Assembly (NCBI GenBank): GCA_027484685.1
Contig: JAIXSO010000025.1
Span: 1-39,792 of the forward strand
Length of the DNA stretch: 39,792 nt
Reading direction: 5' to 3'
Source of the DNA: Bacteroidota bacterium
GTDB taxonomy: Bacteria > Bacteroidota > Bacteroidia > UKL13-3
Position numbers and translations under genes: made by a program. This document shows, piece by piece, positions 8,606-23,756 of the stretch. The notes below the pieces were generated by a model. The model had not been told where the DNA came from and ran no database searches. It saw only the letters and a list, made by a program, of their open reading frames with translations. The number at the start of each line of letters is the position of its first letter. The first letter of the stretch is position 1.

Positions 8606-8671
8606 ACCCTACTGTTCGTAGTCTTGTGCGCTTAGACATAGCAAAGAGTCCGAAAGTTTTCGAACTACGAA
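8606..8671. repeat. Palindromic element (CGTAG type)
   Basis: Arms TTCGTAGT (8615-8622) and ACTACGAA (8664-8671) enclose a loop with CGAAAGTTTTCG. Related copies lie at 12902-12987, about 14697-14740 and 14755-14796. The 8533-8917 gap holds this element, the phrase GAGTTTGTAACTC (8688-8700), also seen near 14810, and a terminator. I see no gene in it. Confidence 0.65.
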
Positions 8672-8863
8672 TTAATAAATGAAAAAAGAGTTTGTAACTC
8701 ATAAGCCCTATATATTTATTTCAATGAACCTAATTTTGGAGTTTCTGTCCTTGAGTAGGTAAGTTAAAGATAGTACAGTTATTGGAAATGAATTTATTTA
8801 TACTTTTAAGTGAAACCATTTCAAGTATTAAATTGAAGAATGAATTTATTTCAATCACACATA

Positions 8864-8901
8864 AAAAAGCCTGAATAGCGTTAACACTACTCAGGCTTTT
8901 T
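8864..8901 (-). terminator. Stem-loop terminator of the FnIII/T9SS gene
   Basis: AAAAAGCCTGA (8864-8874) pairs perfectly with TCAGGCTTTTT (8891-8901), an 11-bp stem. It lies 17 bases beyond the stop codon of the minus-strand gene at 8918. The A/T-flanked stem can work in both directions. Confidence 0.85.
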
Positions 8902-8917
8902 GGCGTTTATAAAGTAT

Positions 8918-11900
8918 TTATTCTTTTACTATTTTAGTAATAAATACTTGATTTTGGCTAAGTACTTTTATTAAGTAAATTCCGTTAACCAATTGCTCAG
9001 TATTTAATGAAATTTCATTTTTGCCAAGGGTATTAAATGTTTGGTTCATTACAACTTTTCCAGTTAAGTCAATAATTTCAACTTGCGCTGTTTTACCAAT
9101 ATTTTCGGGCAATTGAATATTTAATTGCTCTTTTATTGGATTTGGGTAAACCAGTAAGTTTGAGCTTACACTATTTTGAACACCTACCATAATACCTAAA
9201 GTAAAGTTAACAACTATAGAATCTGAATTTAAGTTAAACACACCAGAATTAGCTGTTACTTTAAATTTAAGTGAAATGCTTTGGTTGGTCGTTACACCTA
9301 ACGATGTGATTAAACCACGTATTTGACTATATGTAAATACTTTATTGGTATCTAAACCGCCATTACCCGATTGGTAAGTAGCTATTGGGTTTCTGAAATT
9401 ACCATTTAAACTATCAACTAATAAAGTATAAGTAGCAGTTTGAGTCAAAATATCATTGATTGATTTGGTCCAAATATAGTTTAGTATTTGAGTGGTGTCG
9501 CCTTGAATGGTAATATTGGCATTATTGGTCGGATTTATAAAACCAAATGTTGAAAGCGGATTGAAAGGAATAATATCAGCCGCATAACGAGGTAATATTT
9601 GATAACCGGTAAATGAATAAGGTGCATTATTGTTCGAAACCTGCGATCCTAAACCCTTTACATGGAAGTAAGTAGTAGTTGGTAATGGAGTTCCAACAAG
9701 GCCGCTGGTATTGTATATTCTAATTGTGAAGGTATCATTATTTAAATTAAGTACTTGATAATTGTTATTCACAGTCCAATTTCCAACTTGACGAGTTATA
9801 AATTTAACAATATTTATTCTTACTAAGTCATTTTCGGTAGATTCATTTAATTTGGTAATTGCTTTAGGATTAGCTAAAGTTTTTCCATTACCTAATATGG
9901 CTAAACTATCTATGGTGTTTAAAATTAATAAACCTCTTGTAGTTGAAACAACTCCAAATACCGAAATGCTGTCACCTTCTGTTGGAGTATAGCCTAATGT
10001 AGCTGCATTGCTAATGGTAATTCCACCAGTATTATCTCGCAATAAAAATTGAATGCCACCTTGATTGATTGTTCTTTGATTTAGACTATAAACAACTCCT
10101 CGTAAAGCTACTCTTACATTTAACGAATCAGGAACTCCAGTAGTTGAGCTAATTCCATTAATTTGCGAAATAGTATAATAAGTTGGTGTAGGAGGATTTG
10201 GTCCTGCTGTACCGTTTCCTATTGCTGAATTTATTGAGTATGTAGAATCAACATCACGAATTACATAAATTAAAACATGGTAATTGGTGAAATTATTTAT
10301 GGATGTAATATTTACAAAATTAGTGTCGCCTTTGTAAACGCACTTAGCAGTAGTATCGTTTTGGTAACGTGTGCTAAATGTTGATGCAAAGTTGGCATTG
10401 GCATTATAAAAATTTACAGTTCTAGTAGGTGTACCTTGGTTAATAGCTGTGTTTGCTTTAACAAATACCAATGTAGTTAAGCTATTATTGGTATAACTGC
10501 TTGGTTTGGTCCATGATATTTTGGTTGATGTGGTTGTAATTCCATTCACTGTAATTGCAGAAACATTCTCTGGAGGTAGGCCTCTGGTTGTTCCTCCTGC
10601 AATGGTAGGATTTGAATACAATGAGTCAACATCGCTCACTACATAAATTAATGCAAAATAAGTAGTAGCAGGATTGAGGCCTGTTGGCGTAACAGAGCTT
10701 GAATCGCCTTTGTATACGCAAAATGCTGCTGTGTCGTTTTGGTAAACAGAACCTAACCTAAAAGTGTCGTTTGCTAATATAGTTGCCACGTCTTTATTAG
10801 GCGAACCTTGGATTACATTGGAGCCTTGTTTTAAAAACACCAATGTGGTAAAGTTAGCATTGTTATAACTAGTATCTTTTGTCCACGATATTCTGCAATT
10901 ATTACTGCTTAATGAAACTAAAGTAGCAGACTTTACATTAACAGGTCCAAGGCTATTGGTTCTAAAAGTACCACTTAAAACTGGTGAGTAATTAGAGTCA
11001 ATATCATTAATGGCATAAGCTGCTATGAAGTAATTGGTGCTAGGATTTAACCCAGTAACTGTTACTTTGGTAGTATCACCTTTATAAACGCAACGAGCGT
11101 TCGAATCGAGCATTAATGCAGAGCCTGAACCTAAAAAGGAAGAATCGACATTAATTAATAATGGATTGGTATTAGGGGTTCCTGAAGTAACCGCTGTGTT
11201 TGCTTTCAAATAAATAACAATGGTATTATTAGCGGTATTATAACCTGTTGGCCTTGTCCAGTTAATAGTAGCTTCGGTTTGGCCTATTGCTGTTATATTT
11301 AAACCTGTAACTGTTCTTGGAGCAGTGCTTAATGTAGTTACACTTGAATTGGTAGGTGTTGAATAAGCACTATCTAAATTTCTCACAGTTAAAATTGAAA
11401 CTTGGTATAAAGTGTTTTGGTTTAAACCTGTTAACGAAAAAGTATTACTATCGCCTAAAAATACACATTTTGCAGCACCATCATTTTGATAAAATGAATT
11501 AGCCAAAGCAAAATTAGCGTTAGCTGTGTAAGCATTTGGCGATAAGTTTGGTGTGCCAATATTAATTGGAGTAATCGGTTTTACAAACACCATGGTTGTC
11601 ATTAATGAATCTACATAGTTTCCGTTTTTTGTCCAAGTAATTCTAGTAGATGAAGTGGTTGTAGTAGAAAAATTAATGCTAAATGGCGATGGTTGAATGG
11701 TACTTGTAGCAGCATTTAGTTCGGCCCAAGTATTTGCAGATCTAATGCCATCAATTGTTAAACGAGGTGCATTTGTAGCAGTTCCTTGGCGTAAAGCCAA
11801 CCTACTTAAAGTTGTTACATCGGCTGTGGTTCCACCAGAAGTAAATACAGTAGGAGTTGGTTCAGCACTTGGGAACGATGAGGTGAAATTAAATACTGAA

Positions 11901-12448
11901 ATAGTATCGTTTAAAGTTCCAATTGTAAATTGGTATTTTACAACTACCAATGAAGTATTATTTAATGCAAAGCTATCTGCACTATAAATAATTGTCTCAT
12001 TGGTTGCAGCGCCTTTTGTAACTCCAATTCTATAAAATCCTGTTCTGGCTGCTCTAATGTATAATCTTCCAGTGTATCCTGTTGTTGAATTTTGTGGCAA
12101 GTAAGCAAAAAAGTAATCGCCAGCGGTGGTAGCTTTATTTACGTTTAACATAAACGAGGTAAATAAATTACCAGAGGAGGTATTATTATATAAATCGCGG
12201 TAAAAATCTTGCCCCACAGTATCAACTTTAGCTGCATTGCCCAAACCAGACAATACATAACTTGAAAAGTTTAAACCAGTATTGGTAATAGATACAGGTA
12301 AAGTGGCTGTTGATGGAATAATAGTCCAACTATTTGAAGTTAATGGACTGCCCGAAGTGTAATCAAAATTTTCGGTCATCAACTGCTGTGCATTTGCATA
12401 AAAGCCTAACGCAAAAAGCATGGCCAAAAGAGTAAATTTTATTTTCAT
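8918..12448 (-). CDS. T9SS-secreted multidomain protein with four FnIII-like repeats
   Basis: A 1176-residue secreted protein. Signal peptide: residues 1-20 (ends FYANA/QQ). Residues about 22-245 look like a jelly-roll domain. Four related fibronectin-III-like repeats follow at about 252-374, 375-497, 498-623 and 624-749. Each carries ITWTK-type and TTLVFVK-type strands, a conserved C-V-[FY]-x-G-D box (CVFLGD, CVYKGD three times) and a closing DVDSxYS. Residues about 755-890 resemble the OB-fold/DUF5689-like domain of cell-surface nuclease-like proteins. The last about 80 residues (LVYPNPIKEQLNIQLP...GIYLIKVL) are a T9SS type A sorting domain. No catalytic site is evident. Adhesion or ligand binding at the cell surface is likely. 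Confidence 0.88.
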   Translation of the reverse strand: MKIKFTLLAMLFALGFYANAQQLMTENFDYTSGSPLTSNSWTIIPSTATLPVSITNTGLNFSSYVLSGLGNAAKVDTVGQDFYRDLYNNTSSGNLFTSFMLNVNKATTAGDYFFAYLPQNSTTGYTGRLYIRAARTGFYRIGVTKGAATNETIIYSADSFALNNTSLVVVKYQFTIGTLNDTISVFNFTSSFPSAEPTPTVFTSGGTTADVTTLSRLALRQGTATNAPRLTIDGIRSANTWAELNAATSTIQPSPFSINFSTTTTSSTRITWTKNGNYVDSLMTTMVFVKPITPINIGTPNLSPNAYTANANFALANSFYQNDGAAKCVFLGDSNTFSLTGLNQNTLYQVSILTVRNLDSAYSTPTNSSVTTLSTAPRTVTGLNITAIGQTEATINWTRPTGYNTANNTIVIYLKANTAVTSGTPNTNPLLINVDSSFLGSGSALMLDSNARCVYKGDTTKVTVTGLNPSTNYFIAAYAINDIDSNYSPVLSGTFRTNSLGPVNVKSATLVSLSSNNCRISWTKDTSYNNANFTTLVFLKQGSNVIQGSPNKDVATILANDTFRLGSVYQNDTAAFCVYKGDSSSVTPTGLNPATTYFALIYVVSDVDSLYSNPTIAGGTTRGLPPENVSAITVNGITTTSTKISWTKPSSYTNNSLTTLVFVKANTAINQGTPTRTVNFYNANANFASTFSTRYQNDTTAKCVYKGDTNFVNITSINNFTNYHVLIYVIRDVDSTYSINSAIGNGTAGPNPPTPTYYTISQINGISSTTGVPDSLNVRVALRGVVYSLNQRTINQGGIQFLLRDNTGGITISNAATLGYTPTEGDSISVFGVVSTTRGLLILNTIDSLAILGNGKTLANPKAITKLNESTENDLVRINIVKFITRQVGNWTVNNNYQVLNLNNDTFTIRIYNTSGLVGTPLPTTTYFHVKGLGSQVSNNNAPYSFTGYQILPRYAADIIPFNPLSTFGFINPTNNANITIQGDTTQILNYIWTKSINDILTQTATYTLLVDSLNGNFRNPIATYQSGNGGLDTNKVFTYSQIRGLITSLGVTTNQSISLKFKVTANSGVFNLNSDSIVVNFTLGIMVGVQNSVSSNLLVYPNPIKEQLNIQLPENIGKTAQVEIIDLTGKVVMNQTFNTLGKNEISLNTEQLVNGIYLIKVLSQNQVFITKIVKE

Positions 12449-12758: not shown

Positions 12759-12780
12759 GTTCATTTTAAAAATGGCTTTT

Positions 12781-12897
12781 TTATTTGCTTAAGAGCATAT
12801 TCTTTTCGCTTTTTAATTAGTGGAAATGAGGGTCGTTCCAAATCATTTATAAACCTAATTGCTTCTTCCGTACTTTATATTTCTAGTACTAATTCCT
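12781..12897 (-). pseudogene. carB 3'-end relic (fragment A)
   Basis: On the minus strand this stretch matches the last ~38 codons of the intact carB (20937-21052). The decoded relic reads STEEAIRFINDLE where CarB has STGEAIRFIKDLN, and ends near the same stop codon. A 17-base block, GGAAATGAGGGTCGTTC, is identical in both. An in-frame TAA replaces the Lys codon before STEEA, and the last ~10 codons have shifted frame. Similarity extends left into the T-run of the carB terminator. This is clearly a decayed duplicate and not expressed as protein. Confidence 0.85.
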
Positions 12898-12901
12898 ACT
12901 T

Positions 12902-12987
12902 ACCCCACTATCCATAGTCTTAAGTTAAGCCAAAGCAGAGAATCTACGGATTTAAAATGAATAAGAATCCGAAAGCTTTCGTATTAT
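12902..12987. repeat. Degenerate CGTAG-type palindromic element
   Basis: It contains ACTATCCATAGTCTT...AGAATCTACGGAT and the palindrome CGAAAGCTTTCG, the same family as the elements at 8606 and 14755. It separates carB relic A from the first Rhs unit. Confidence 0.6.
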
Positions 12988-13004
12988 AACTCTTACTTTT
13001 AACC

Positions 13005-13038
13005 AACCGCTTTAGCCAAAAACTAAAGCGGTTTTTTT
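13005..13038 (+). terminator. Repeated hairpin CCGCTTTAG/CTAAAGCGG, copy 1
   Basis: AACCGCTTTAG (13005-13015) and CTAAAGCGGTT (13023-13033) form an 11-bp stem followed by a T-run to 13038, the form of an intrinsic terminator. Close copies at 14834, 16885 and 17069 mark each unit boundary of the Rhs-tip array. Confidence 0.75.
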
Positions 13039-13040
13039 AT

Positions 13041-13203
13041 GTAAAAACCGTTATTGTTTTGGTATATTTGAAGTACAAAATGTACTTAACCAATTTTCAT
13101 TTTTACTCCCGATACATCGGGATAAAAAACTACCTTTATAGCAAGCCTATAAAGGGTTTGCGTGGTTGTGAGGTATGTTATGGCTTCGCCTTCAATGGTA
13201 AAG
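13041..13203 (+). repeat. Conserved Rhs-unit 5' module, copy 1
   Basis: About 165 bases shared by three sites (also 14945-15107 and 17173-17346), from GTAAAAACCGTTATTG to TTCAATGG. It includes TATATTTG (13063-13070), which fits the -7 promoter consensus, the palindrome CCCGATACATCGGG, and a hairpin CCTTTATAG...CTATAAAGG. It encodes the start of the Rhs-tip frames. Copies 2 and 3 carry ~70 extra upstream bases that are missing here between short GTAAAAAC direct repeats. Confidence 0.85.
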
Positions 13204-14000
13204 AATGTGACAATGAAACTTATGGTGAAGGAAATGCTTATGACTTTGGGGCGAGGGTTTTAGACGTAAGATTGGGTAGATGGATGAGTGTTGATCCTTT
13301 AGTTCATAAACTTCATTATTTGAGTCCATTTAATGCATTCAATAATAACCCAGTTTTTTATATTGATCCTACTGGAAAGGTTGTAAAACCCTCAACACAG
13401 GAAGCATTGGAGGTAATAAAAAGTATCTTACCTAAAGAATCTAGGGAATTTGTTGTTTTAAATCCTGATGGAAATATTGACTTAAATAAGCTTTTGGAAT
13501 TTAAAGGATCTGTAAAAGGCGGTAATTTTTCTTCATTGATTGGTTTAGTTGAAGATAAAGAAGTTATTATTTTTTCTGTTGTAAAAGGTGATTATGAGTT
13601 AAAACCATCTATAGCAGATGGTAAAGAAGCTCCATTCACTATAAATTTCGGAGAGGCTCGTCCAATGACAGAAAAAGAAAAAAAAGAAGGTTATAATGGA
13701 GACCCTGAATATAATTTAACAACAGGAGAAGCGGCTGATGGATTTTCAGGAATGACCACTCCAAAGAAAGAGTCAAAGAGTGGAAATATAGAAGTACTTG
13801 TAAATGGAAATTTGTCGAAACAAGGACAAGCTGAAGTTGCTGCTCATGAGCTTTTTGGACATGGAAAGGTTGAAGTTATCGAAAAAGGAAATGGTAGCCA
13901 TGATATCGATTCTGGAACTAGAACTGATAAAAACAAATATTTGAAAGAAACTATTAAAAAAAGTGTAAATGAAGCTATTAAGAATTTTAAAAACCTATAA
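13080..14000 (+). CDS. Rhs C-terminal tip with putative HExxxH metalloprotease toxin
   Basis: A 306-residue orphan Rhs tip. Residues about 40-100 match the RHS repeat-associated core end (YGFAFNGKE, then AYDFGARVLDVRLGRWMSVDP, LSPFNAFNNNPVFYIDPTGK), which normally closes the YD-repeat shell. The variable region after it is the presumed toxin. It contains AEVAAHELFGHGKVEV, an HExxxH zinc-protease-like site near residue 265. A complete Rhs would have >1000 residues before this. None is present, so expression would need the module's own TATATTTG box or recombination into a full rhs gene. I use ATG 13080. A TTG at 13059 is also in frame. The stop overlaps the next gene by 32 bases. Confidence 0.75.
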   Translation: MYLTNFHFYSRYIGIKNYLYSKPIKGLRGCEVCYGFAFNGKECDNETYGEGNAYDFGARVLDVRLGRWMSVDPLVHKLHYLSPFNAFNNNPVFYIDPTGKVVKPSTQEALEVIKSILPKESREFVVLNPDGNIDLNKLLEFKGSVKGGNFSSLIGLVEDKEVIIFSVVKGDYELKPSIADGKEAPFTINFGEARPMTEKEKKEGYNGDPEYNLTTGEAADGFSGMTTPKKESKSGNIEVLVNGNLSKQGQAEVAAHELFGHGKVEVIEKGNGSHDIDSGTRTDKNKYLKETIKKSVNEAIKNFKNL

Positions 14001-14676
14001 AATTATTTTATTTGGAGTCGTGATTAGTTTTTCATTTACTGAAAAACTAAAATATGATGAAATAGATATTAGTGGTAAAATTTTATTTTATAATTTTAAT
14101 GAAATAGAATACGCAAGTATTAAAACTTACTATAAAAATACTTCCAAAAAAGAAATTGTTTTATGGTTGCAAGACTGGAGATCAATTGATTTTTATGATA
14201 ATGATAGTCAAAAAAAAATATGTCCGATTTTTTTTCTTACTCCCCACATAAATACCATCATTTTTTTACATGATAGTATTACTGTAGTTTCTGAACGTAA
14301 TTACAAAGATTTAATTCAAAAATCGGCCAAAACGGAGGCAAATTTTTATTATAAAAAGATAAAGCCGAATGAAATTTTTTTAGTTAATATGATTATTACA
14401 GATACTTCAGTTATTCATTTACTCAAACAAAATTACTACACAAATGCTTTAGTTTGGTACTCTTGTTACGACTATAAAAAAGGGAAACAAATTAATAATA
14501 AATGGTTTCTAAATGATGATGAAATAACGCTCTTAATGAACGAAAAGTTTAATGATGATTGTTTTGCAAAAGAAATATTAATAGATAAGAACAACCAAGA
14601 AATTTCTATGACTGAATTGCCATTTGAAAAAAATCTTACTAGTCATAGAAAAGGAGTTATTTATAAAAAGAATTAA
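13969..14676 (+). CDS. Putative immunity protein of Rhs tip 1, exported
   Basis: A 235-residue protein I do not recognise. A hydrophobic N-terminal stretch (YKIILFGVVISFSFTEKL) acts as signal peptide or anchor, so the rest probably faces the periplasm. The mature part alternates beta-like and charged segments, including KNTSKKEIVLWLQDW and TNALVWYSCYDYKKG, with no catalytic motif. Its first 32 bases overlap the toxin frame. This is the position and coupling expected of a cognate immunity gene, and it is the basis for the call. The partner's predicted protease activity suggests a direct inhibitor. Confidence 0.6.
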   Translation: MKLLRILKTYKIILFGVVISFSFTEKLKYDEIDISGKILFYNFNEIEYASIKTYYKNTSKKEIVLWLQDWRSIDFYDNDSQKKICPIFFLTPHINTIIFLHDSITVVSERNYKDLIQKSAKTEANFYYKKIKPNEIFLVNMIITDTSVIHLLKQNYYTNALVWYSCYDYKKGKQINNKWFLNDDEITLLMNEKFNDDCFAKEILIDKNNQEISMTELPFEKNLTSHRKGVIYKKN

Positions 14677-14696
14677 TTTTGAATATTCTAACTACT

Positions 14697-14740
14697 CACT
14701 ATCCATAGTATGCAGCAAAGCAATTGAGGGGGTATGACAG
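14697..14740. repeat. CGTAG-type palindromic element, degenerate copy
   Basis: CACTATCCATAGTATGC followed by CAAAGCAATTGAGG and GACAGATTTAAAAC matches the framework of the better-preserved copy immediately downstream. The two lie in tandem after the immunity gene of unit 1. Confidence 0.5.
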
Positions 14741-14754
14741 ATTTAAAACCTACT

Positions 14755-14796
14755 ATCCGTAGTCTCCGCCAAGCCAAAGCAGAGGGGACTACGGAT
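14755..14796. repeat. CGTAG-type palindromic element, best copy
   Basis: ATCCGTAGTC (14755-14764) and GACTACGGAT (14787-14796) are perfect 10-bp inverted arms. Pairing extends inward by T-G, C-G and C-G around a loop containing AAGCCAAAGCAGAGG. This is the clearest member of the family in the window and lies between Rhs units 1 and 2. Confidence 0.8.
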
Positions 14797-14833
14797 TTTA
14801 AATTGAAAAGAGTTTGTAACTCCAACCAAAAAC

Positions 14834-14872
14834 AAAAACCGCTTTAGCAAAAAAAAACTAAAGCGGTTTTTT
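14834..14872 (+). terminator. Repeated hairpin CCGCTTTAG/CTAAAGCGG, copy 2
   Basis: AAAACCGCTTTAG (14835-14847) pairs with CTAAAGCGGTTTT (14858-14870), a 13-bp stem with a T-rich tail. It lies between unit 1 and the conserved 5' module of unit 2. Confidence 0.78.
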
Positions 14873-14891
14873 ATGTAAAAACTGCTTTATA

Positions 14892-14921
14892 CCGCAAATA
14901 ATTTTATAAAAAATTATGCGG
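14892..14921. repeat. CCGC/GCGG hairpin in Rhs-unit leader, copy 1
   Basis: CCGCAAATAATTTT and AAAATTATGCGG form an imperfect hairpin. The same sequence recurs at 17121-17148 but is absent from unit 1. Confidence 0.7.
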
Positions 14922-14944
14922 CATAACCAAAACTAATAAAGGTA

Positions 14945-15107
14945 GTAAAAACCGTTATTGTTTTGGTATATTTGAAGTACAAAATGTACTTATCCAATTT
15001 TCATTTTTACTCCCGATACATCGGGATAAAAAACTACCTTTATAGCAAGTCTGTAAAGGGTTTGCGTGGTTGTGGGGTGGGTTATGGCTTCGCCTTCAAT
15101 GGACAAG
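14945..15107 (+). repeat. Conserved Rhs-unit 5' module, copy 2
   Basis: Close to copy 1 (13041-13203) over ~165 bases, with TATATTTG at 14967-14974 and CCCGATACATCGGG. It is preceded by the AACCAAAACTAATAAAGG leader that copy 1 lacks. After TTCAATGG the two units diverge quickly, so the module marks the exchange point for different tips. Confidence 0.85.
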
Positions 15108-15988
15108 AAAAGGATGATGAGATTTCAGGTGAAGGAAATATAATGACTGCCGAATTTTGGGAGTATGATGCACGGTTAGGTAGAAGATGGAATGTGGATC
15201 CAATTTCAAAACATTCATCAAGTAATTTTTCATGCTTTTCAAATAATCCATTGACTAGAATTGATCCTAATGGAAAATCAGATTATTATACTGAAAAAGG
15301 TAAATATTTGGGGAGTGATGGATCTGAGAAGACAGATATTATTATTATTACCGATAAAAATCTAATAAAAAAAATTAACGCACAATCCGAAGAAGTGTTG
15401 AAAAAAAATCCGGATGCATATGTAGAGGTAAAAATAGAACTAAAAGAAAATACCTATTTTATTCTACCCTCTTTTAAAGACAGATCTGAAATCAAAGAAA
15501 AAATTGAAAAAGTAGATTACTCTGACGGTAAATATTACGAAATAGGGGGAGCTAGTTACACAATAGACGGTAAAACTACAAGAAATGATAATACAGGGGA
15601 AAAGCAAACATTACAACAAATGGCGGAAAGTGCAGAAAATAATCTTTTACCCCTAGGAGTGGGTCTTTTAACAGAAGGGCTGCCAGATGCTAATGTAAAT
15701 TACACATGGCATTTGCATCCAGATAAAATGATTCTTATCAAAGATCCTATAACTTCTAAATTTTCAATACTTGCAAAAGATAATTCATCATATTCTGGCA
15801 AGTTTCAAACTATTGGAGGTCTTGAACCAAGTAGTACCGATGAAAATAACTATTCTAGTACATTTAAATCTAACTTTCTCTTTACAAAAACTGGAGAAGA
15901 CGTAATGTTCTATGATAAGAATAAAAATGTAACATTGGACAAGAAATTCTTTTTTAATACACAAGCAAAAATAAAACCAAAACAATAA
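14984..15988 (+). CDS. Rhs C-terminal tip with putative JAB/JAMM-like toxin
   Basis: A 334-residue orphan Rhs tip. The core end is recognisable as YGFAFNGQEKDDE, then AEFWEYDARLGRRWNVDPIS and FSNNPLTRIDPNGK. A pretoxin segment (DYYTEKGKYLGSDGSEK), seen before many Bacteroidota Rhs toxins, follows. The C-terminal region has YTWHLHPDK (HxHP) near residue 242 and EPSSTDENN (SxxD-like) about 40 residues later. Together these resemble the zinc site of JAB/JAMM isopeptidase-type toxins. An upstream catalytic Glu may be that in YYEIGGASY. No YD-repeat shell is present. I use ATG 14984. TTG 14963 is also in frame. The next gene follows after 5 bases. Confidence 0.75.
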   Translation: MYLSNFHFYSRYIGIKNYLYSKSVKGLRGCGVGYGFAFNGQEKDDEISGEGNIMTAEFWEYDARLGRRWNVDPISKHSSSNFSCFSNNPLTRIDPNGKSDYYTEKGKYLGSDGSEKTDIIIITDKNLIKKINAQSEEVLKKNPDAYVEVKIELKENTYFILPSFKDRSEIKEKIEKVDYSDGKYYEIGGASYTIDGKTTRNDNTGEKQTLQQMAESAENNLLPLGVGLLTEGLPDANVNYTWHLHPDKMILIKDPITSKFSILAKDNSSYSGKFQTIGGLEPSSTDENNYSSTFKSNFLFTKTGEDVMFYDKNKNVTLDKKFFFNTQAKIKPKQ

Positions 15989-15993
15989 ATAAT

Positions 15994-16779
15994 ATGATAA
16001 ACCGATTTTTAATAATGTTTTTTGTCCTATTGGCTTTTAAGTCTTATTCTAAAAAATTAAACGACACTGAACATGAATTAATATGGAGAAAATGTATTAG
16101 TGTTGGTGAATTAAGAATTTGGAACACATGGGATGCTATCGCATTCTTAAATATGTATGAAGAATCTCTATCAATTAAGGAACTTTGGATAAGTAACTTT
16201 GATTCATTTAATTCTTTTAGGGAAGAAATATTTAGAAAATTAGAAAATCAAACTAAAATTGAGAAATTAAGAATAGAATACTTTACGATTAATAATGATA
16301 GTAATACTTTCTGGAAAAACATAAATGTTAAAGGTGGAAGTTTACAATCGATATTTATATCCAATAGTAAATTAGATTCAACAATATTTGAGAATTTTAT
16401 TAATATAAATAATCTTTCAAATATCATATTAGTAAATAATAATATAAAAGATATTACTTATATTCTATCGATTTTAAGTAGGTGTTCAAATTTAGAATCA
16501 GTTAATTTTTCAAAGAACCCTATAATTTTTGTTCCTAAAAATTTCTTATTATACGGAAACATTAAATTTTTGGATTTTTCGTATACAAAAATTAAGGAAA
16601 TACCTTTACAAGAATTATTAAATTCAAATATTAAAGGTATACATGTTTTTGGATGTAAATTAAAAAAAATGAAAATAAAAAAAACTAATTCACCAAAATG
16701 TATGATCTTGAGCGGTAGTAATGAATTTTTAAAACAAAATCGAAAGATTTTAAAACAAATTCAATGCAAGAGTCTATAG
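15994..16779 (+). CDS. Leucine-rich-repeat protein, putative immunity partner of Rhs tip 2
   Basis: A 261-residue protein with a signal peptide (MINRFLIMFFVLLAFKSYS/KK). From about residue 60 it consists of leucine/isoleucine-rich repeats of ~23 residues: IKELWISNFDSF, IEKLRIEYFTIN, LQSIFISNSKLD, LSNIILVNNNIKDI, LESVNFSKNPI, IKFLDFSYTKIKEIP. LRR solenoids bind proteins. Exported, and 5 bases behind the tip 2 toxin, it probably binds and neutralises that toxin. The functional assignment rests on position only. Its AT content is even higher than that of the core genes around the array, consistent with a transferred cassette. Confidence 0.65.
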   Translation: MINRFLIMFFVLLAFKSYSKKLNDTEHELIWRKCISVGELRIWNTWDAIAFLNMYEESLSIKELWISNFDSFNSFREEIFRKLENQTKIEKLRIEYFTINNDSNTFWKNINVKGGSLQSIFISNSKLDSTIFENFININNLSNIILVNNNIKDITYILSILSRCSNLESVNFSKNPIIFVPKNFLLYGNIKFLDFSYTKIKEIPLQELLNSNIKGIHVFGCKLKKMKIKKTNSPKCMILSGSNEFLKQNRKILKQIQCKSL

Positions 16780-16884
16780 CACCCCCTAACCTAGTTAGCG
16801 CAAGAGCAAATAAAGCAAAGCTGTTGCCCTTCCGAAATCTTACGGAATTTGGCGTGTTTCATAGTAACAAAAGTAAAACTATCT

Positions 16885-16917
16885 AAACCGCTTTAGCCAA
16901 AACTAAAACAGTTTTTT
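16885..16917 (+). terminator. Repeated hairpin, degenerate copy 3
   Basis: AAACCGCTTTAG then CTAAAACAGTTTTTT. The right arm has lost pairing at the GCGG positions. The 16780-17426 gap holds this, a second hairpin (17069), two related phrases ending in AACAAAAGTAAAA (16865-16878 and 17048-17061), the unit 3 Rhs piece and a carB relic. I see no intact gene. Confidence 0.6.
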
Positions 16918-17068
16918 AAAATTAAACAGGAAAATAGGCGTTCACTGAATAAAATCAATACAAAAAGACATACCAAAATCATACAAGAGTTTTGGAATAG
17001 ATGCTTTTAAAAGCCAATGCTGGTGCACGTCTTAGACGTTTTCAAAGCAACAAAAGTAAAATATAAAC

Positions 17069-17101
17069 AAAACCGCTTTAACTAAAACTAAGCGGTTTTT
17101 T
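17069..17101 (+). terminator. Repeated hairpin, copy 4
   Basis: AAAACCGCTTTA and TAAGCGGTTTTT form a stem with a T-tail just before the third Rhs-unit leader, the same design as at 13005 and 14834. Confidence 0.65.
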
Positions 17102-17120
17102 ATTTTAAAAATGCGTTATA

Positions 17121-17148
17121 CCGCCAATAATTTTATAAAAATTATGCG
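17121..17148. repeat. CCGC/GCGG hairpin in Rhs-unit leader, copy 2
   Basis: CCGCCAATAATTTT and AAATTATGCGG repeat the element at 14892-14921, again followed by CATAACCAAAACTAATAAAGG. Confidence 0.7.
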
Positions 17149-17172
17149 GCATAACCAAAACTAATAAAGGTA

Positions 17173-17346
17173 GTAAAAACCTTTATTGTTTTGGTATATT
17201 TGAATTACAAAATGCACTTAACCAATTTCCATTTTTACACCCGATACATCGGGATAAAAAACTACCTTTATAGTAAGCCTGCAAAGAGTTTTTAGTCCTA
17301 ATTTATTAGAAGTTATATTGGTTATAACTTCGTTTTCAATGGCAAA
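17173..17346 (+). pseudogene. Gutted Rhs unit 3: conserved 5' module without toxin
   Basis: Third copy of the ~165-bp Rhs-unit module, with TATATTTG (17195-17202) and the CCCGATACATCGGG palindrome intact. The second half is eroded. Where the other copies read GTTATGGCTTCGCCTTCAAT, this one reads GTTATAACTTCGTTTTCAAT. Immediately after TTCAATGGCAAA the Rhs similarity stops and carB similarity begins. No toxin or immunity frame follows. Confidence 0.8.
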
Positions 17347-17387
17347 ATGAATTTTCATCAAACTTCTAAAATTAGTTTTTATTGGCT
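17329..17387 (-). pseudogene. carB internal relic (fragment B)
   Basis: On the minus strand the sequence decodes as KTNFRSLMKIHFAIENE, against KMNIRGLMNMQFAIKNE in the intact CarB (DNA 21258-21315). By eye about 48 of 58 bases agree, with one gap. The first ~18 bases fit both the Rhs module and carB, so the junction lies in a microhomology around TTCAATGGCAAA. Orientation is the same as in intact carB. Confidence 0.8.
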
Positions 17388-17426
17388 TTTTATTTAATAT
17401 TGTCATCAAATTTTTTATATAAAAAC

Positions 17427-20400
17427 ATGAAAAAATCAATACTAATCTTTTTATTTACTTTTATTTCGTTTGTGGCTTTCTCTCAATCAATTGGAGATAC
17501 CATAAAAGTTAAAACATTTCACTATGGTAGCAATACCAGAGATACTCTAATTGCTTTTCCAAACAATAATTTATCGTACGAAAAAATTATTATGAAATAC
17601 AATATGCGTTGTAAAAATGCTTTGATTTCAACTGGTACAAACCGTAACCAAGGCTGTGGGGAGTGGGATTATAGCTGTAATACCTACATTGTTGATTCCA
17701 ATAAAGTAGAAGCTGTTTTAACTACACAACCAAACTATGTAATCAATAATTTTAATGGAAGTACCTTTAAATACACCACAAAAATGCCTCATGATTATTT
17801 AAGATTTACTCAACAAAAAACGGTTGTTGATAGTGTAATTTCTGAAAATATTTACACCATACAAAATGGAACTGATACCATAAATAACTTTATAAAAGCT
17901 AACGAAAATTCAGGAAAATCTCAAATTATTTATAAAGCCTCTGAGTTAATTTCAGCTGGAATTACAGCAGGAAATATAAATGGTATTACATTGAATGTTT
18001 TAAATAATGGAGGAACAGCAAATTTTTTAAAAATTAAAATAAAAGGTGTATCAAATACTTTTTTATCATCAAGCAATCTTGTTCTAAATGGCTTTACTGA
18101 AGTTTATAATCAAAACTACAATTTTGTAAATGGAGAAAATGTGATTCATTTTAAAACACCTTTTGCTTGGGATGGTATTCAAAATTTAATTATTGAAGTT
18201 TCATTTACAAACACAATTCCTCAAAATCAAATTAATTTTGCTGGAAATACCGATTCATTAACCGTAGGTCTATATGCAACCAATAATTATGCATTAAACT
18301 TAATGAATAGTGGTTTTCTAAAATTAGATACAACTGGTTTTTTTCAAATTAATAAAGAACTTACCATATCGTTTTGGACTTTTGGAAATGCAAATGTGAT
18401 GCCTACTACAACTACTATTTTGTATGGTTTTCCAACCAATGAAAACGAAAGACAGTTGAACATTCATTTACCACACGGCAATACCAATGTATATTTTGAT
18501 TGTGGTTATTCAGCAGGTGGTTACGACAGAATAAATAAAGTAGCAACCGCGCAAGAACAAGGAGGAAAATGGAACCACTGGACTTTTACTAAAAATGCCA
18601 ATACTGGAACTATGAAGATTTTTTTAAATGGTGCGCTTTGGCATTCAGGAACTGGACTAACAAAAGCCATTACTCTTTTAAATTTATTGCTAGGAAAAAA
18701 TCAAAATAAAGACGCCAATTACAAGGGAAAAATAAATGAATTGGCTATATTTAAAAAAGAATTACCAGATTCAATAGTGTTAGGTTGGTATAAAAAACCA
18801 ATTACTTCATCACATCCTTTTTATTCAAATTTGTTGAGCTATTATCCGTTTAACGAAGCAATGGGGCAACAAGTTAAAAACAATGTATCGAATGTGGTTT
18901 TAAATGGCGAAAACTTAACATGGACGTTTGAAAGAGGCGATCAACTAGACAGAACATTTTTTGAAACCAATAAAAGACCTAATATTAAATTTATAAAAGC
19001 AAATTATGTTTCAACAATCCAAAACACTTTTGCTTTAGATTCTATAGCTAGAAACACTGCATTAATAGAAAAATTTAGTATTGATTCAAAAGCAGATGTT
19101 ATTCCTTTAACCAACGATATAGTAAAACTTGATACTACTTATAGAAACTATTATTCAGCCGAAAACAGTACAATTATAAACGGTGACAGTGGAAATATAA
19201 TTTCATCAGTTCCGGTAAGTTCTGAAGGTGCGTTAAGTCTAAGTAATTTAAATTACTATAAACGTTACCCTTTTTATAACGAAATAATGTCGTTTGTAAC
19301 TCCTTATGGTATTGGTTTAGACTTAGGTGTAAATGGCAAAACATGGTATTTTGATGTAAGTGATTTTGAACCTTTACTAAAAAACAATAAAAGAATTTTG
19401 ATGACACTAGGTGGGCAAAATCAAGAACAAATGGATGTGGAATTTTGGTTTGTAGTAGGTACCCCGGTAAGAAAAGTTTTAGCGTTTAATCAACTTTGGC
19501 AAGGCACAAACAGAACAGGCTCGCCATCAATTGGTAGCATCAATAACGAGTCGGTTTACTCAGCCATTTCTGTTCCAACTTTAAGTACAGGTAAGGCATT
19601 TAAAATTCGCTCATCTATTACAGGGCATGGTGCTGAGGGAGAATTTGAATCAAATGGTGGACCAATTGATCATTCAATAAATATTAATGGAGGAAGTACT
19701 GAATTTATTTGGAGTATTTATCAAAAATGTGCTTCTAATCCTGTTTTTCCTCAAGGTGGAACTTGGGTTTACGATAGGCAAGGTTGGTGTCCCGGTCAAA
19801 GCTCTTTACTAAAAGAAAATGATGTTACATCGCTTGTAAATCCCGGAACTCCAATTACAGTTGATTACAATGCTTCAATACCTAATAAAACTTCGGGCGA
19901 CTACAGATACCATATTGCGCATCAATTAGTAACTTATGATGTTCCAAGTTTTAATATTGATGCTAGAATATTAGATGTTATAGAGCCTAGCGATAAAATT
20001 GTAAATGCAAAATTCAACCCTTCTTGTAGTCAACCAAAAATTATAGTTCAAAACTCTGGAAAAAATAACATAACCAGTTTGGTTATAAACTATTGGTTAA
20101 ATAATTCCACAGTTAAACAAGCTTATACTTGGATCGGAAATTTAGCCTTTTTAGACACTGCAATTATAACATTACCAAATTATTGGTTATGGTATAATGG
20201 CATTACAGAAAACAATAATAAATTTTACGCTGAAATAAAAAGTGTAAACAATACAACGGACGAATATGCTTATAATAATAAATATGAATCGGCATTTAAT
20301 AAGCCAGATGTAGTTACTGGTAAATTTACTATCGATGTAAAAACCAATAATAATCCCGCAGAAAACTCTTACCAATTATATGATTCTGACGGAAAGCTAG

Positions 20401-20897
20401 TTGACAGTAAAACTTTTGATAAAGCAAATACTTTATTTAGTAATACCTATACTTTAGGTGGGTTTTATAAATTAGTAGTAAATGATGAAGGAGAAGACGG
20501 AATAAATTGGTGGGCAAATACCGCTCAAGGAACAGGTTTTGTAAGAATTAGAAACGAGGCAGGTGCTGTTGCAAAAACTTTACAGCCCGATTTTGGAAAA
20601 TTTATTGAATATAGTTTTACCACCAGATGGAAATTAAATAATGAAGAGGTAGCCGAAGAAAATCTTTTTGGTATTTACCCTAATCCAGCTAGTAATTTAT
20701 TTTACTTAGAAGGTTTAAATATAAACAATGCTATTATTAAAGTTACTGATATTTTAGGACATGAAATGGCTCTAAATAAAAACACTATTGAAACCAATAA
20801 GATAGAATTTAATAGTGCTGTTTTAAAACCGGGAGTCTATTTCGTTTCAATATACAATAACGGTGTTCAAACGGTAAAACAACTTGTGATTCAATAA
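17427..20897 (+). CDS. PNGase F-related T9SS-secreted protein with LamG domain
   Basis: 1156 residues. Signal peptide MKKSILIFLFTFISFVAFS/Q. Residues about 22-110 resemble the N-terminal domain of peptide-N-glycosidase F relatives (SYEKIIMKYNMRCK, GCGEWDYSCNTYI). A concanavalin A/LamG-like domain lies at about 300-455 (ELTISFWTF, GGKWNHWTFTKN, INELAIFKKELPD). Residues about 635-900 match the PNGase F C-terminal part (KTWYFDVSDFEPLL, VEFWFVVGTPVRKVL). A T9SS type A sorting domain ends it (GIYPNPASNLFYLEG...GVYFVSIYN). These enzymes remove N-glycans from glycoproteins, but the catalytic acids were not verified here. ATG 17427 gives a clean signal peptide. An upstream TTG lies inside the carB relic. 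Confidence 0.85.
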   Translation: MKKSILIFLFTFISFVAFSQSIGDTIKVKTFHYGSNTRDTLIAFPNNNLSYEKIIMKYNMRCKNALISTGTNRNQGCGEWDYSCNTYIVDSNKVEAVLTTQPNYVINNFNGSTFKYTTKMPHDYLRFTQQKTVVDSVISENIYTIQNGTDTINNFIKANENSGKSQIIYKASELISAGITAGNINGITLNVLNNGGTANFLKIKIKGVSNTFLSSSNLVLNGFTEVYNQNYNFVNGENVIHFKTPFAWDGIQNLIIEVSFTNTIPQNQINFAGNTDSLTVGLYATNNYALNLMNSGFLKLDTTGFFQINKELTISFWTFGNANVMPTTTTILYGFPTNENERQLNIHLPHGNTNVYFDCGYSAGGYDRINKVATAQEQGGKWNHWTFTKNANTGTMKIFLNGALWHSGTGLTKAITLLNLLLGKNQNKDANYKGKINELAIFKKELPDSIVLGWYKKPITSSHPFYSNLLSYYPFNEAMGQQVKNNVSNVVLNGENLTWTFERGDQLDRTFFETNKRPNIKFIKANYVSTIQNTFALDSIARNTALIEKFSIDSKADVIPLTNDIVKLDTTYRNYYSAENSTIINGDSGNIISSVPVSSEGALSLSNLNYYKRYPFYNEIMSFVTPYGIGLDLGVNGKTWYFDVSDFEPLLKNNKRILMTLGGQNQEQMDVEFWFVVGTPVRKVLAFNQLWQGTNRTGSPSIGSINNESVYSAISVPTLSTGKAFKIRSSITGHGAEGEFESNGGPIDHSININGGSTEFIWSIYQKCASNPVFPQGGTWVYDRQGWCPGQSSLLKENDVTSLVNPGTPITVDYNASIPNKTSGDYRYHIAHQLVTYDVPSFNIDARILDVIEPSDKIVNAKFNPSCSQPKIIVQNSGKNNITSLVINYWLNNSTVKQAYTWIGNLAFLDTAIITLPNYWLWYNGITENNNKFYAEIKSVNNTTDEYAYNNKYESAFNKPDVVTGKFTIDVKTNNNPAENSYQLYDSDGKLVDSKTFDKANTLFSNTYTLGGFYKLVVNDEGEDGINWWANTAQGTGFVRIRNEAGAVAKTLQPDFGKFIEYSFTTRWKLNNEEVAEENLFGIYPNPASNLFYLEGLNINNAIIKVTDILGHEMALNKNTIETNKIEFNSAVLKPGVYFVSIYNNGVQTVKQLVIQ

Positions 20898-20899
20898 AC

Positions 20900-20936
20900 A
20901 AAAAAGGCGTTAAATAATTTATTTAACGCCTTTTTT
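20900..20936. terminator. Bidirectional terminator between PNGase-like gene and carB
   Basis: AAAAAAGGCGTTAAATA (20900-20916) pairs with TATTTAACGCCTTTTTT (20920-20936), a 17-bp perfect stem with a 3-base loop. It sits exactly between two convergent genes and serves both. Confidence 0.92.
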
Positions 20937-23756
20937 TTATTTACTTAAGAACATGCTCTTTTCGCTTCGCAATTGGCGGAAATGAGGGTCGTTCAAATCT
21001 TTTATAAATCTAATTGCTTCTCCTGTACTTTTCATTTCTGGTCCTAATTCCTTATTCACATTCGGGAATTTATTGAACGAAAATACTGGCTCTTTTATGG
21101 CGTAACCGGTAAGCTTTCTTTCAAAAGTAAAGTCGGTTAATTTATTTTGGCCTAACATTATTTTAGTAGCAATATTTACATAAGCTATTCCGTATGCTTT
21201 GGCTATAAACGGAACGGTTCTACTAGAGCGTGGATTAGCTTCAATTACATACACCTTTTCGTTTTTAATGGCAAATTGCATGTTCATCAAACCTCTAATA
21301 TTCATTTTAAAGGCTAGTTTAGTGGCAATATCTTCCATTTGTTTTTGAACATTTTCGCTCAAGCTAAATGGAGGTAATACCGCACTTGAATCACCACTAT
21401 GGATTCCAGCAGGTTCTATATGTTCCATCATGCCTATAATATGAACAGTTTCACCATCGCAAATCAAATCAATTTCGGCTTCTTCTGCTCTATCTAAAAA
21501 ATGATCAATTAATACACGGTTTCCAGGTAAATCGCCTAATAAATCAATTACGGCTTTTTCCAAATCCTCATCATTGATTACAATTTTCATTCCTTGTCCG
21601 CCTAATACATAACTTGGGCGAACCAAAACAGGATAACCAACTTTATTGGCTACAGCAATGGCTTCGTCAGCATCTTCGGCCACACCATAATTAGGATAAG
21701 GAATATCTAATTCTTTTAATAAATCAGAGAACGAACCTCTATCTTCCGATAAATCCATATCAGGGAAACTGGTTCCTATAATTTTGATGCCATGCTCATG
21801 TAATTTACGAGCTAATTTCAGCGCAGTTTGGCCACCTAATTGGACAATTACACCTTCTGGTTTTTCTTTTTCTATAATCTCGCGGATATGTTCCCAGAAA
21901 ATTGGCTCAAAATATAACTTGTCAGCCATGTCAAAGTCGGTTGAAACTGTTTCAGGATTACAATTAATCATAATGGCTTCGTAACCACATTCCTTTGAGG
22001 CTAAAAGTCCATGAACGCAGCAATAATCAAATTCAATTCCTTGGCCAATTCTATTTGGTCCTGAACCTAAAACTATGACTTTCTTTTTATCACTAACTAT
22101 ACTCTCATCTTCTTGGTCAAAGCTTGAGTAAAAATAGTTGGTTGGTGATGGAAACTCAGCCGCACAAGTATCTACCATTTTGTAAACACGCTTCACATTC
22201 ATTTGTGTGCGCAAGTTCCAAACATCATCTTCAACGGTATTGCCACCTAATAAATGAGCTATTTGCGCATCGCTATAACCTTTTTGTTTTAACTCAACCA
22301 TTACCTCTTTAGGCATATTGGTTACGTTAAAACGTTTGGCTGTATTTTCTAAATGCACCATATCGCTAATTTGGTTTAAGAACCAACGGCTAATACGCGT
22401 CATTTTCTCTACTGATGATATTGGAACACCTAAACTCAAGGCATCTTTTACTGCAAATATTCTATCCCAACTTGGGTTTTTTAATTTGTCAACTATATCC
22501 TCTAATTTCTTTTGTTGGTAACCATCAGCACCTAAACCATTGCGTTTAATTTCTAACGATTGAATGGCTTTTTGTAGTGCCTCGGTAAAGGTTCTTCCAA
22601 TTCCCATGGTTTCACCTACCGATTTCATTTGTAAGCCTAAAGTTTTATCAGCACCTTTAAATTTATCAAAATTCCAACGTGGTACTTTTACAATTACATA
22701 ATCAATGGCAGGTTCAAAAAATGCTGAAGTAGTTTTTGTTACAGGATTTTTTAGTTCATCTAAATGATAACCAATAGCCAATTTTGCTGCAATTTTTGCA
22801 ATTGGATAACCCGTTGCTTTACTTGCTAATGCCGATGAGCGCGAAACACGAGGGTTAATTTCAACGGATATAATTTGCTCGTCTTCAGGATTTACAGCAA
22901 ATTGAACATTACATCCACCTGTAAAGTTTCCAATACTGCGCATCATGTGTATAGCCATATCGCGCATGCGTTGGTAAGTGCTATCGCTCAATGTCATGGC
23001 AGGCGCAACTGTAATTGAATCACCAGTATGAATTCCCATTGGGTCAAAATTTTCAATGGTACAAATTACTGTTACGTTATTATTTTTATCGCGCAATAAC
23101 TCTAATTCATATTCTTGCCAACCAAATAATGCTTTTTCAACCAAAACCTCGTGAGTAGGCGAAGCTTCTAAGCCACGTTTTAAAGCAGCATCTAATTCCG
23201 ATTTTTCGTTAACAAATCCACCACCACTTCCACCTAAAGTAAATGAAGGTCGTATAACTAATGGAAAACCAATTGTTTGTGCAATTTCTTTTCCTTCTAA
23301 AAAGGAGTTTGCCACTTTTGATTGAGCAACTGGCACACCAATATCAATCATTTTTTGGCGGAATAACTCGCGATTTTCGGTGGTGTTAATGGCAGCAATA
23401 TCAACCCCAATCATGCGTACATTGTATTTTGCCCAAAGCCCAATTTCATCGGCTTCAATAGCTAAATTTAATGCTGTTTGTCCTCCCATAGTTGGTAAAA
23501 CTGCATCAATGTGGCGCTCTTTTAAAATTTGTTCAATACTTTCAATTGTTAACGGCAATAAGTAAACATTATCTGCCGTAACTTTATCCGTCATAATAGT
23601 AGCAGGGTTAGAGTTAATTAAGGTAACTTCAATTCCTTCTTCTTTTAATGAACGAGCAGCTTGGCTTCCCGAATAATCAAATTCGCATGCTTGACCAATA
23701 ATAATAGGTCCACTTCCAATAATAAGTACTGATTTAAGGCTGGTATCTTTAGGCAT
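20937..23756 (-). CDS. carB: Carbamoyl-phosphate synthase large subunit
   Basis: 939 residues. CarB makes carbamoyl phosphate from bicarbonate, ammonia (delivered by CarA) and two ATP, for arginine and pyrimidine synthesis. Two ATP-grasp halves are evident: KSVLIIGSGPIIIGQACEFDYSG opens the first, and KKVIVLGSGPNRIGQGIEFDYC (from about residue 555) the second. ISVEINPRVSRSSALASKATGYP and YVIEANPRSSRTVPFIAKAYG are the paired metal/ATP sites. E. coli CarB has about 1073 residues. This protein ends right after the second synthetase half, without the MGS-like allosteric domain, as I recall for many Bacteroidota. Two decayed fragments of the same gene lie at 12781 and 17329. No carA is adjacent. 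Confidence 0.97.
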   Translation of the reverse strand: MPKDTSLKSVLIIGSGPIIIGQACEFDYSGSQAARSLKEEGIEVTLINSNPATIMTDKVTADNVYLLPLTIESIEQILKERHIDAVLPTMGGQTALNLAIEADEIGLWAKYNVRMIGVDIAAINTTENRELFRQKMIDIGVPVAQSKVANSFLEGKEIAQTIGFPLVIRPSFTLGGSGGGFVNEKSELDAALKRGLEASPTHEVLVEKALFGWQEYELELLRDKNNNVTVICTIENFDPMGIHTGDSITVAPAMTLSDSTYQRMRDMAIHMMRSIGNFTGGCNVQFAVNPEDEQIISVEINPRVSRSSALASKATGYPIAKIAAKLAIGYHLDELKNPVTKTTSAFFEPAIDYVIVKVPRWNFDKFKGADKTLGLQMKSVGETMGIGRTFTEALQKAIQSLEIKRNGLGADGYQQKKLEDIVDKLKNPSWDRIFAVKDALSLGVPISSVEKMTRISRWFLNQISDMVHLENTAKRFNVTNMPKEVMVELKQKGYSDAQIAHLLGGNTVEDDVWNLRTQMNVKRVYKMVDTCAAEFPSPTNYFYSSFDQEDESIVSDKKKVIVLGSGPNRIGQGIEFDYCCVHGLLASKECGYEAIMINCNPETVSTDFDMADKLYFEPIFWEHIREIIEKEKPEGVIVQLGGQTALKLARKLHEHGIKIIGTSFPDMDLSEDRGSFSDLLKELDIPYPNYGVAEDADEAIAVANKVGYPVLVRPSYVLGGQGMKIVINDEDLEKAVIDLLGDLPGNRVLIDHFLDRAEEAEIDLICDGETVHIIGMMEHIEPAGIHSGDSSAVLPPFSLSENVQKQMEDIATKLAFKMNIRGLMNMQFAIKNEKVYVIEANPRSSRTVPFIAKAYGIAYVNIATKIMLGQNKLTDFTFERKLTGYAIKEPVFSFNKFPNVNKELGPEMKSTGEAIRFIKDLNDPHFRQLRSEKSMFLSK

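Follow-up and report, generated by a model that had tools for sequence, protein, structure and literature searches.

A likely recombination scar beside carB: two carB fragments around a block of Rhs cassettes

We found that a 51-base segment at 17329-17379 of the window, that is, the entire 39,792-nucleotide contig (C28) of a 4.5 Mb genome in 72 contigs, whose junctions are taken from the assembly, matches the neighbouring carB gene far beyond chance. Together with a first carB fragment at the other edge of a block of Rhs cassettes, this segment is best read, at a probability of roughly 0.55, as part of a recombination scar without present function of its own, in which insertion of an N-glycanase gene made a single dead copy of the 3' end of carB and the Rhs block later entered that copy. 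The features on which this reading draws are the following.

12777-12897, minus strand: first carB relic, the carB 3' end, 85% identical over 121 nt to 20933-21052 and frameshifted in the alignment
12898-17346, plus strand: Rhs cassette block, with two orphan Rhs tips, one gene following each, and a decayed third module (repeat families D1, D3 and D7)
17173-17346, plus strand: third, decayed Rhs module, whose homology to the other modules stops in the junction tract
17329-17379, minus strand: second carB relic, 43/51 ungapped to carB 21258-21308
17329-17346, no strand assigned: junction tract compatible with carB (17/18) as well as with the end of the Rhs module
17347-17360, minus strand: carB-only stretch, 11/14 to carB, belonging neither to Rhs nor to the native N-glycanase upstream
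17361-17430, plus strand: DNA native to the upstream side of the N-glycanase gene, matching relative G007 (L039 2159-2228) at 94.3% over 70 nt
17427-20897, plus strand: secreted protein gene with N-glycanase_C, Laminin_G_3 and Por_Secre_tail domains (Pfam)
20893-20941, no strand assigned: palindromic terminator-like sequence common to the convergent N-glycanase gene and carB (inverted match in self-BLAST)
20937-23756, minus strand: intact carB with CPSase domains (Pfam), the sole full-length copy found in the genome

Results

When 17320-17400 was aligned pairwise with carB, the segment gave a score of 62 (+2/-3 scoring), in the orientation first proposed, and the same pair had an E value of 9.6e-9 in a self-BLAST of the window. 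The original prediction had allowed that such a likeness might be no better than chance for AT-rich DNA, and four comparisons contradicted this. Dinucleotide shuffles of 17320-17400 reached a maximum of 37 (n = 2000, both carB strands), with a Gumbel fit to the shuffles giving P ~4e-10 for the observed score. Among 920 real segments of the window, each of 81 bases and taken at steps of 40 bases with carB excluded, scores above 34 occurred only at the first relic (98, 74 and 72) and at the second (62 and 46). Past the end of the Rhs homology, 17347-17379 continued in unchanged register with 26/33 matches to carB, a count for which the best of the other 33-mers of the window was 21/33 (n = 76,516). 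Pairs scoring as high in the self-comparison appeared, judging by their positions, to be repeats, palindromes or duplicated domains. By its similarity to carB above chance the segment is a carB pseudogene fragment, and, at 51 bases in a genome with a single full-length carB, it lies outside any working gene. The match was absent from the results of whole-genome searches, each of which scored 40 of 70-211 first-look candidates and one of which returned the first relic without the second; presumably this reflects a seed limit, since the longest exact run to carB is 10 bases and only those 40 candidates were scored.

The segment was made up of three parts, namely the tract shared by Rhs and carB, the carB-only stretch, and 17361-17379, where carB and the native upstream of the N-glycanase gene overlap. 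Over the 18-base tract, the two intact Rhs modules of the window matched the segment at 15/18 and 14/18 and carB at 14/18 and 13/18, and on this alignment the Rhs/carB junction is somewhere inside 17329-17346. It had been proposed that the junction word fits both sequences; the junction does fall inside a tract of dual fit, but carB has TTTAATGGCAAA and not TTCAATGGCAAA there, giving one mismatch. The carB-only stretch would be about 14-17 bases long with a similar word on either side, and its 11/14 fit to carB was equalled by 10 of 76,554 other 14-mers of the window.

To the right, 17361-17430 corresponds to DNA that also precedes the N-glycanase gene in G007, where it is part of a full long hairpin (-17.0 kcal/mol); the window retains the right arm of this terminator-like hairpin and has lost the left one, 17341-17400 folding at -4.0 kcal/mol. 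Positions 17361-17379 matched carB at 15/19, the G007 version of these bases matched carB at 14/19, and with the place of the second relic and carB itself excluded, nine of 76,544 window 19-mers reached 14 and one reached 15. Such a likeness is therefore unusual, and would be accounted for if the junction had arisen at a similar word. This second junction, between carB and the native N-glycanase upstream at ~17361-17379, was overlooked in the original prediction; a short similar word is thus present at both illegitimate junctions, Rhs/carB (14/18 and 13/18) and carB/native upstream (15/19). The proposed illegitimate recombination at a short shared word is supported, the likeness to carB being beyond chance and the Rhs junction lying in a tract that fits both partners.

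The first relic was nearest to the genome's own carB. Its identity to the carB of relatives was 82.6% over 86 nt (G009), 80.7% over 140 nt (G006), 79.3% over 140 nt (G003), 79.2% over 72 nt (G005), 75-77% over 108-109 nt (G004, G001 and G008) and 71.4% over 119 nt (G007), and a 43-nt piece of G011 matched at 83.7%. The match to G003 and G006 runs on for ~13 bases beyond the own-carB match, to 12764, and this flank looks like the old carB terminator as it occurs in those two genomes. The second relic follows the first in carB order and orientation, with 21053-21257 (~205 bases) missing and the Rhs block in their place. Being collinear, the two relics probably represent the two halves of a single dead copy, so that of the claim of a second, separate relic the carB origin stands and the separateness probably does not.

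Of 29 intervals of 100 nt along intact carB, 28 had their closest match in G003 and/or G006 alone and the other showed a tie of G003 and G008; carB matches in the genome comprised one full-length and three weak partial ones. The gene now ends in the terminator shared with the N-glycanase gene, like that of G007, in which 20893-20941 is also present (92.1% over 38 nt). A second carB 3' copy was found in none of nine relatives' carB loci (11-19 kb each, E <= 0.01).

The N-glycanase gene showed an affinity at odds with that of the core genes. Its DNA identity was 91.8% to G007, 83.4% to G009 and 70.1% to G003, whereas hppA was 94.8% identical to G003, 93.4% to G006 and 85.9% to G007, and recA 95.2% to G006 and 88.5% to G007 (recA of G003 being cut by a contig end); three core genes were 85-89% identical to G007. 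Judged by these identities the genome is nearest G003/G006, and with its nearest relative in G007 the N-glycanase gene was probably transferred, the segment having probably been exchanged between the G007 lineage and the host lineage in either direction. In a scan of genome contigs, one of 32 N-glycanase-type loci had carB in the fetched stretch (L077), and this locus proved to be letter for letter the G007 contig, leaving no further relative with such an arrangement.

Elsewhere in the window, a secreted fn3/Por_Secre_tail protein encoded at 8918-12448 was 62% identical to G001, G004 and G008, 59% to G005 and 55% to G009, and 47-49% to the core-gene sisters G003/G006; these affinities hint at another exchange of surface genes. 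Positions 1-525 hold a 247-nt tandem duplication with inverted repeats, adjoining an IS200-like transposase gene at 536-976.

The Rhs block begins with DNA that aligns with intergenic cassette DNA on contigs C9 and C61, and its open reading frames lie at 13059-14000/13969-14676 and 14963-15988/15994-16779. We take these to be Rhs genes from a core motif. The layout of orphan cassettes, in which a core tip lacks the long Rhs body and has a small gene after it, is present in the block, and from this layout the genes may be assigned toxin and immunity roles; the four open reading frames gave no Pfam hits and, in particular, no Phage_integrase domain. A repeated hairpin-like element (ACTATCC.TAGT ... 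CTACGGAT) lies between cassettes at 12904-13048 and 14749-14882, and also in L057 and L055.

We aligned 12 Rhs module starts, of which one (C24_2130) hardly resembles a module in its 5' part, leaving out two copies cut by contig ends (C9 and C24). Save for one 12-base insertion, the third module of the window tracks the others through FNGK. In GGTTATGGCTTCGCCTTCAATGG it differs from the second module at four positions, each of them a G-to-A or C-to-T change, the pattern that decay would give. The continuation at 17347-17360 occurs in none of the 11 other aligned copies. Breaks at the GGTTATGGCTTCGCCTTCAATGGNAAA word were seen in two of the 12 copies, the third module (at 17346) and a copy at L055 8623, in which the core breaks off directly behind GTTATGGC and gives way to a different tip. 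That Rhs modules here break preferentially at this short conserved word and pair with unrelated genes, making it a hot spot for capture or invasion of other DNA, seems doubtful.

The L055 copy (8623-9118) has a core to GTTATGGC and then a short tip open reading frame, without a Pfam hit, that contains HEIYH, an HExxH motif of the kind typical of zinc peptidases. The same locus (G000:C61) carries at 9764-11554 two adjoining genes with Phage_integrase domains amid at least six Rhs cassette modules, the second of these genes having weaker relatives elsewhere in the genome.

Discussion

We favour a history in which both fragments are remnants of a single dead carB copy. In a first step, a G007-like lineage would have supplied the N-glycanase gene together with half of the upstream hairpin and the downstream shared terminator. 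Insertion of this segment behind carB would have left on its far side a 5'-truncated second copy, consisting of the final ~370 carB bases and the old terminator, with carB and the N-glycanase upstream joined in the imperfect similar word (15/19). In a second step, the Rhs cassette block would have been joined into the dead copy by illegitimate recombination, replacing ~205 bases (the equivalent of 21053-21257), its right end joining carB within 17329-17346 and its left end lying at ~12897; the first and second relics would then be what remains of the dead copy. The order of events and the pathway are what we infer, and joining at short similar words is supported.

We prefer this history because the relics share carB order and orientation, the first being nearest to the genome's own carB and having a G003/G006-like flank; because none of the nine relatives' loci has a second 3' copy and the N-glycanase gene is G007-like; and because the Rhs homology ends in the junction tract while 17361-17430 recurs in G007 ahead of its N-glycanase gene. 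Several points weigh against it. The carB-only stretch is merely 14-17 bases long, the missing 205 bases left no trace, so that the choice between one copy and two pieces rests on collinearity, and the likeness to the old terminator extends only ~13 bases past the own-carB match. The intermediate stage was not found in the relatives examined, for 370 bases to be duplicated on insertion, a sister chromosome or template switch would have been required, and the whole-genome searches did not list the match of the second relic.

The main rival, which we regard as possible though not probable, is that the segment is templated filler, copied when repair of the Rhs end and the N-glycanase upstream took ~20-50 bases from nearby carB via both similar words, with the first relic of independent origin. 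Both flanks do fit carB in a single register (17/18 and 15/19), which is what a template bridging them would need, and the carB-only stretch is short, but such a repair would leave the first relic as an unrelated second carB duplication within 4.6 kb, equal in order and orientation by chance. Templated filler and the one-copy history are both illegitimate recombination at short similar words.

An integrative element that attaches at the 3' end of carB, with the displaced old 3' end at the far edge, would agree with the direct repeat of a gene 3' end that flanks ~8 kb here. We consider it improbable, as no integrase domain was present in five proteins encoded between the repeats that were tested, the intact carB is G003/G006-like and not G007-like up to its stop codon, and the repeat has decayed to an 85% match. 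We also considered, and disfavour, Campbell-type insertion of a circle whose carB end was G007-like, the intact carB being G003/G006-like to the stop and the first relic far from G007.

Very improbable, too, is that the segment is a decayed continuation of the third Rhs module: Rhs homology does reach 17346 and some later bases resemble module 1 by eye, but the continuation is missing from the other aligned copies (the contig-end copies on C9 and C24 standing outside the alignment) and fits carB at 26/33. Chance resemblance of AT-rich DNA, favoured in so far as Rhs on the left and native upstream on the right partly explain the segment and genome searches did not list the match, is refuted for the segment as a whole by the score of 62 against a shuffle maximum of 37 (n = 2000) and by 26/33 outside Rhs against a best of 21 (n = 76,516), and is conceivable only as to how far exactly the carB part extends.

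The scar records, almost to the base, how an Rhs block and a gene that was probably transferred came to sit beside a carB that stayed intact, and it suggests that two neighbouring relics are one.

Comparison with known systems

In homology-facilitated illegitimate recombination, foreign DNA is anchored by homology at one end and joined illegitimately at the other. The pathway proposed here resembles this: the Rhs block has cassette DNA with homologues elsewhere in the genome on one side and meets an unrelated gene at a short-word junction on the other, and the N-glycanase segment looks similar. The anchors at the other end could be Rhs repeats for the Rhs block and carB for the N-glycanase segment, but here the process is read from a decayed scar alone, in which donor, anchor and pathway are not observable. 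At the borders of integrative elements, displaced gene 3' ends are found, and here too inserted DNA has a repeated gene 3' end at its far edge; in contrast to such elements, the five proteins tested here include no integrase, and the intact carB does not look donor-like. Homology-facilitated illegitimate recombination has been put forward as a possible cause for Rhs loci and Vibrio T6SS immunity arrays (PMC5361080), and the rows of orphaned Rhs 3' regions and of immunity genes without partners in such loci share with the present block its stacked cassette ends, whereas here the right end meets a piece of a biosynthetic gene and not another cassette. The scar is of a known, ordinary sort and reveals no new mechanism.
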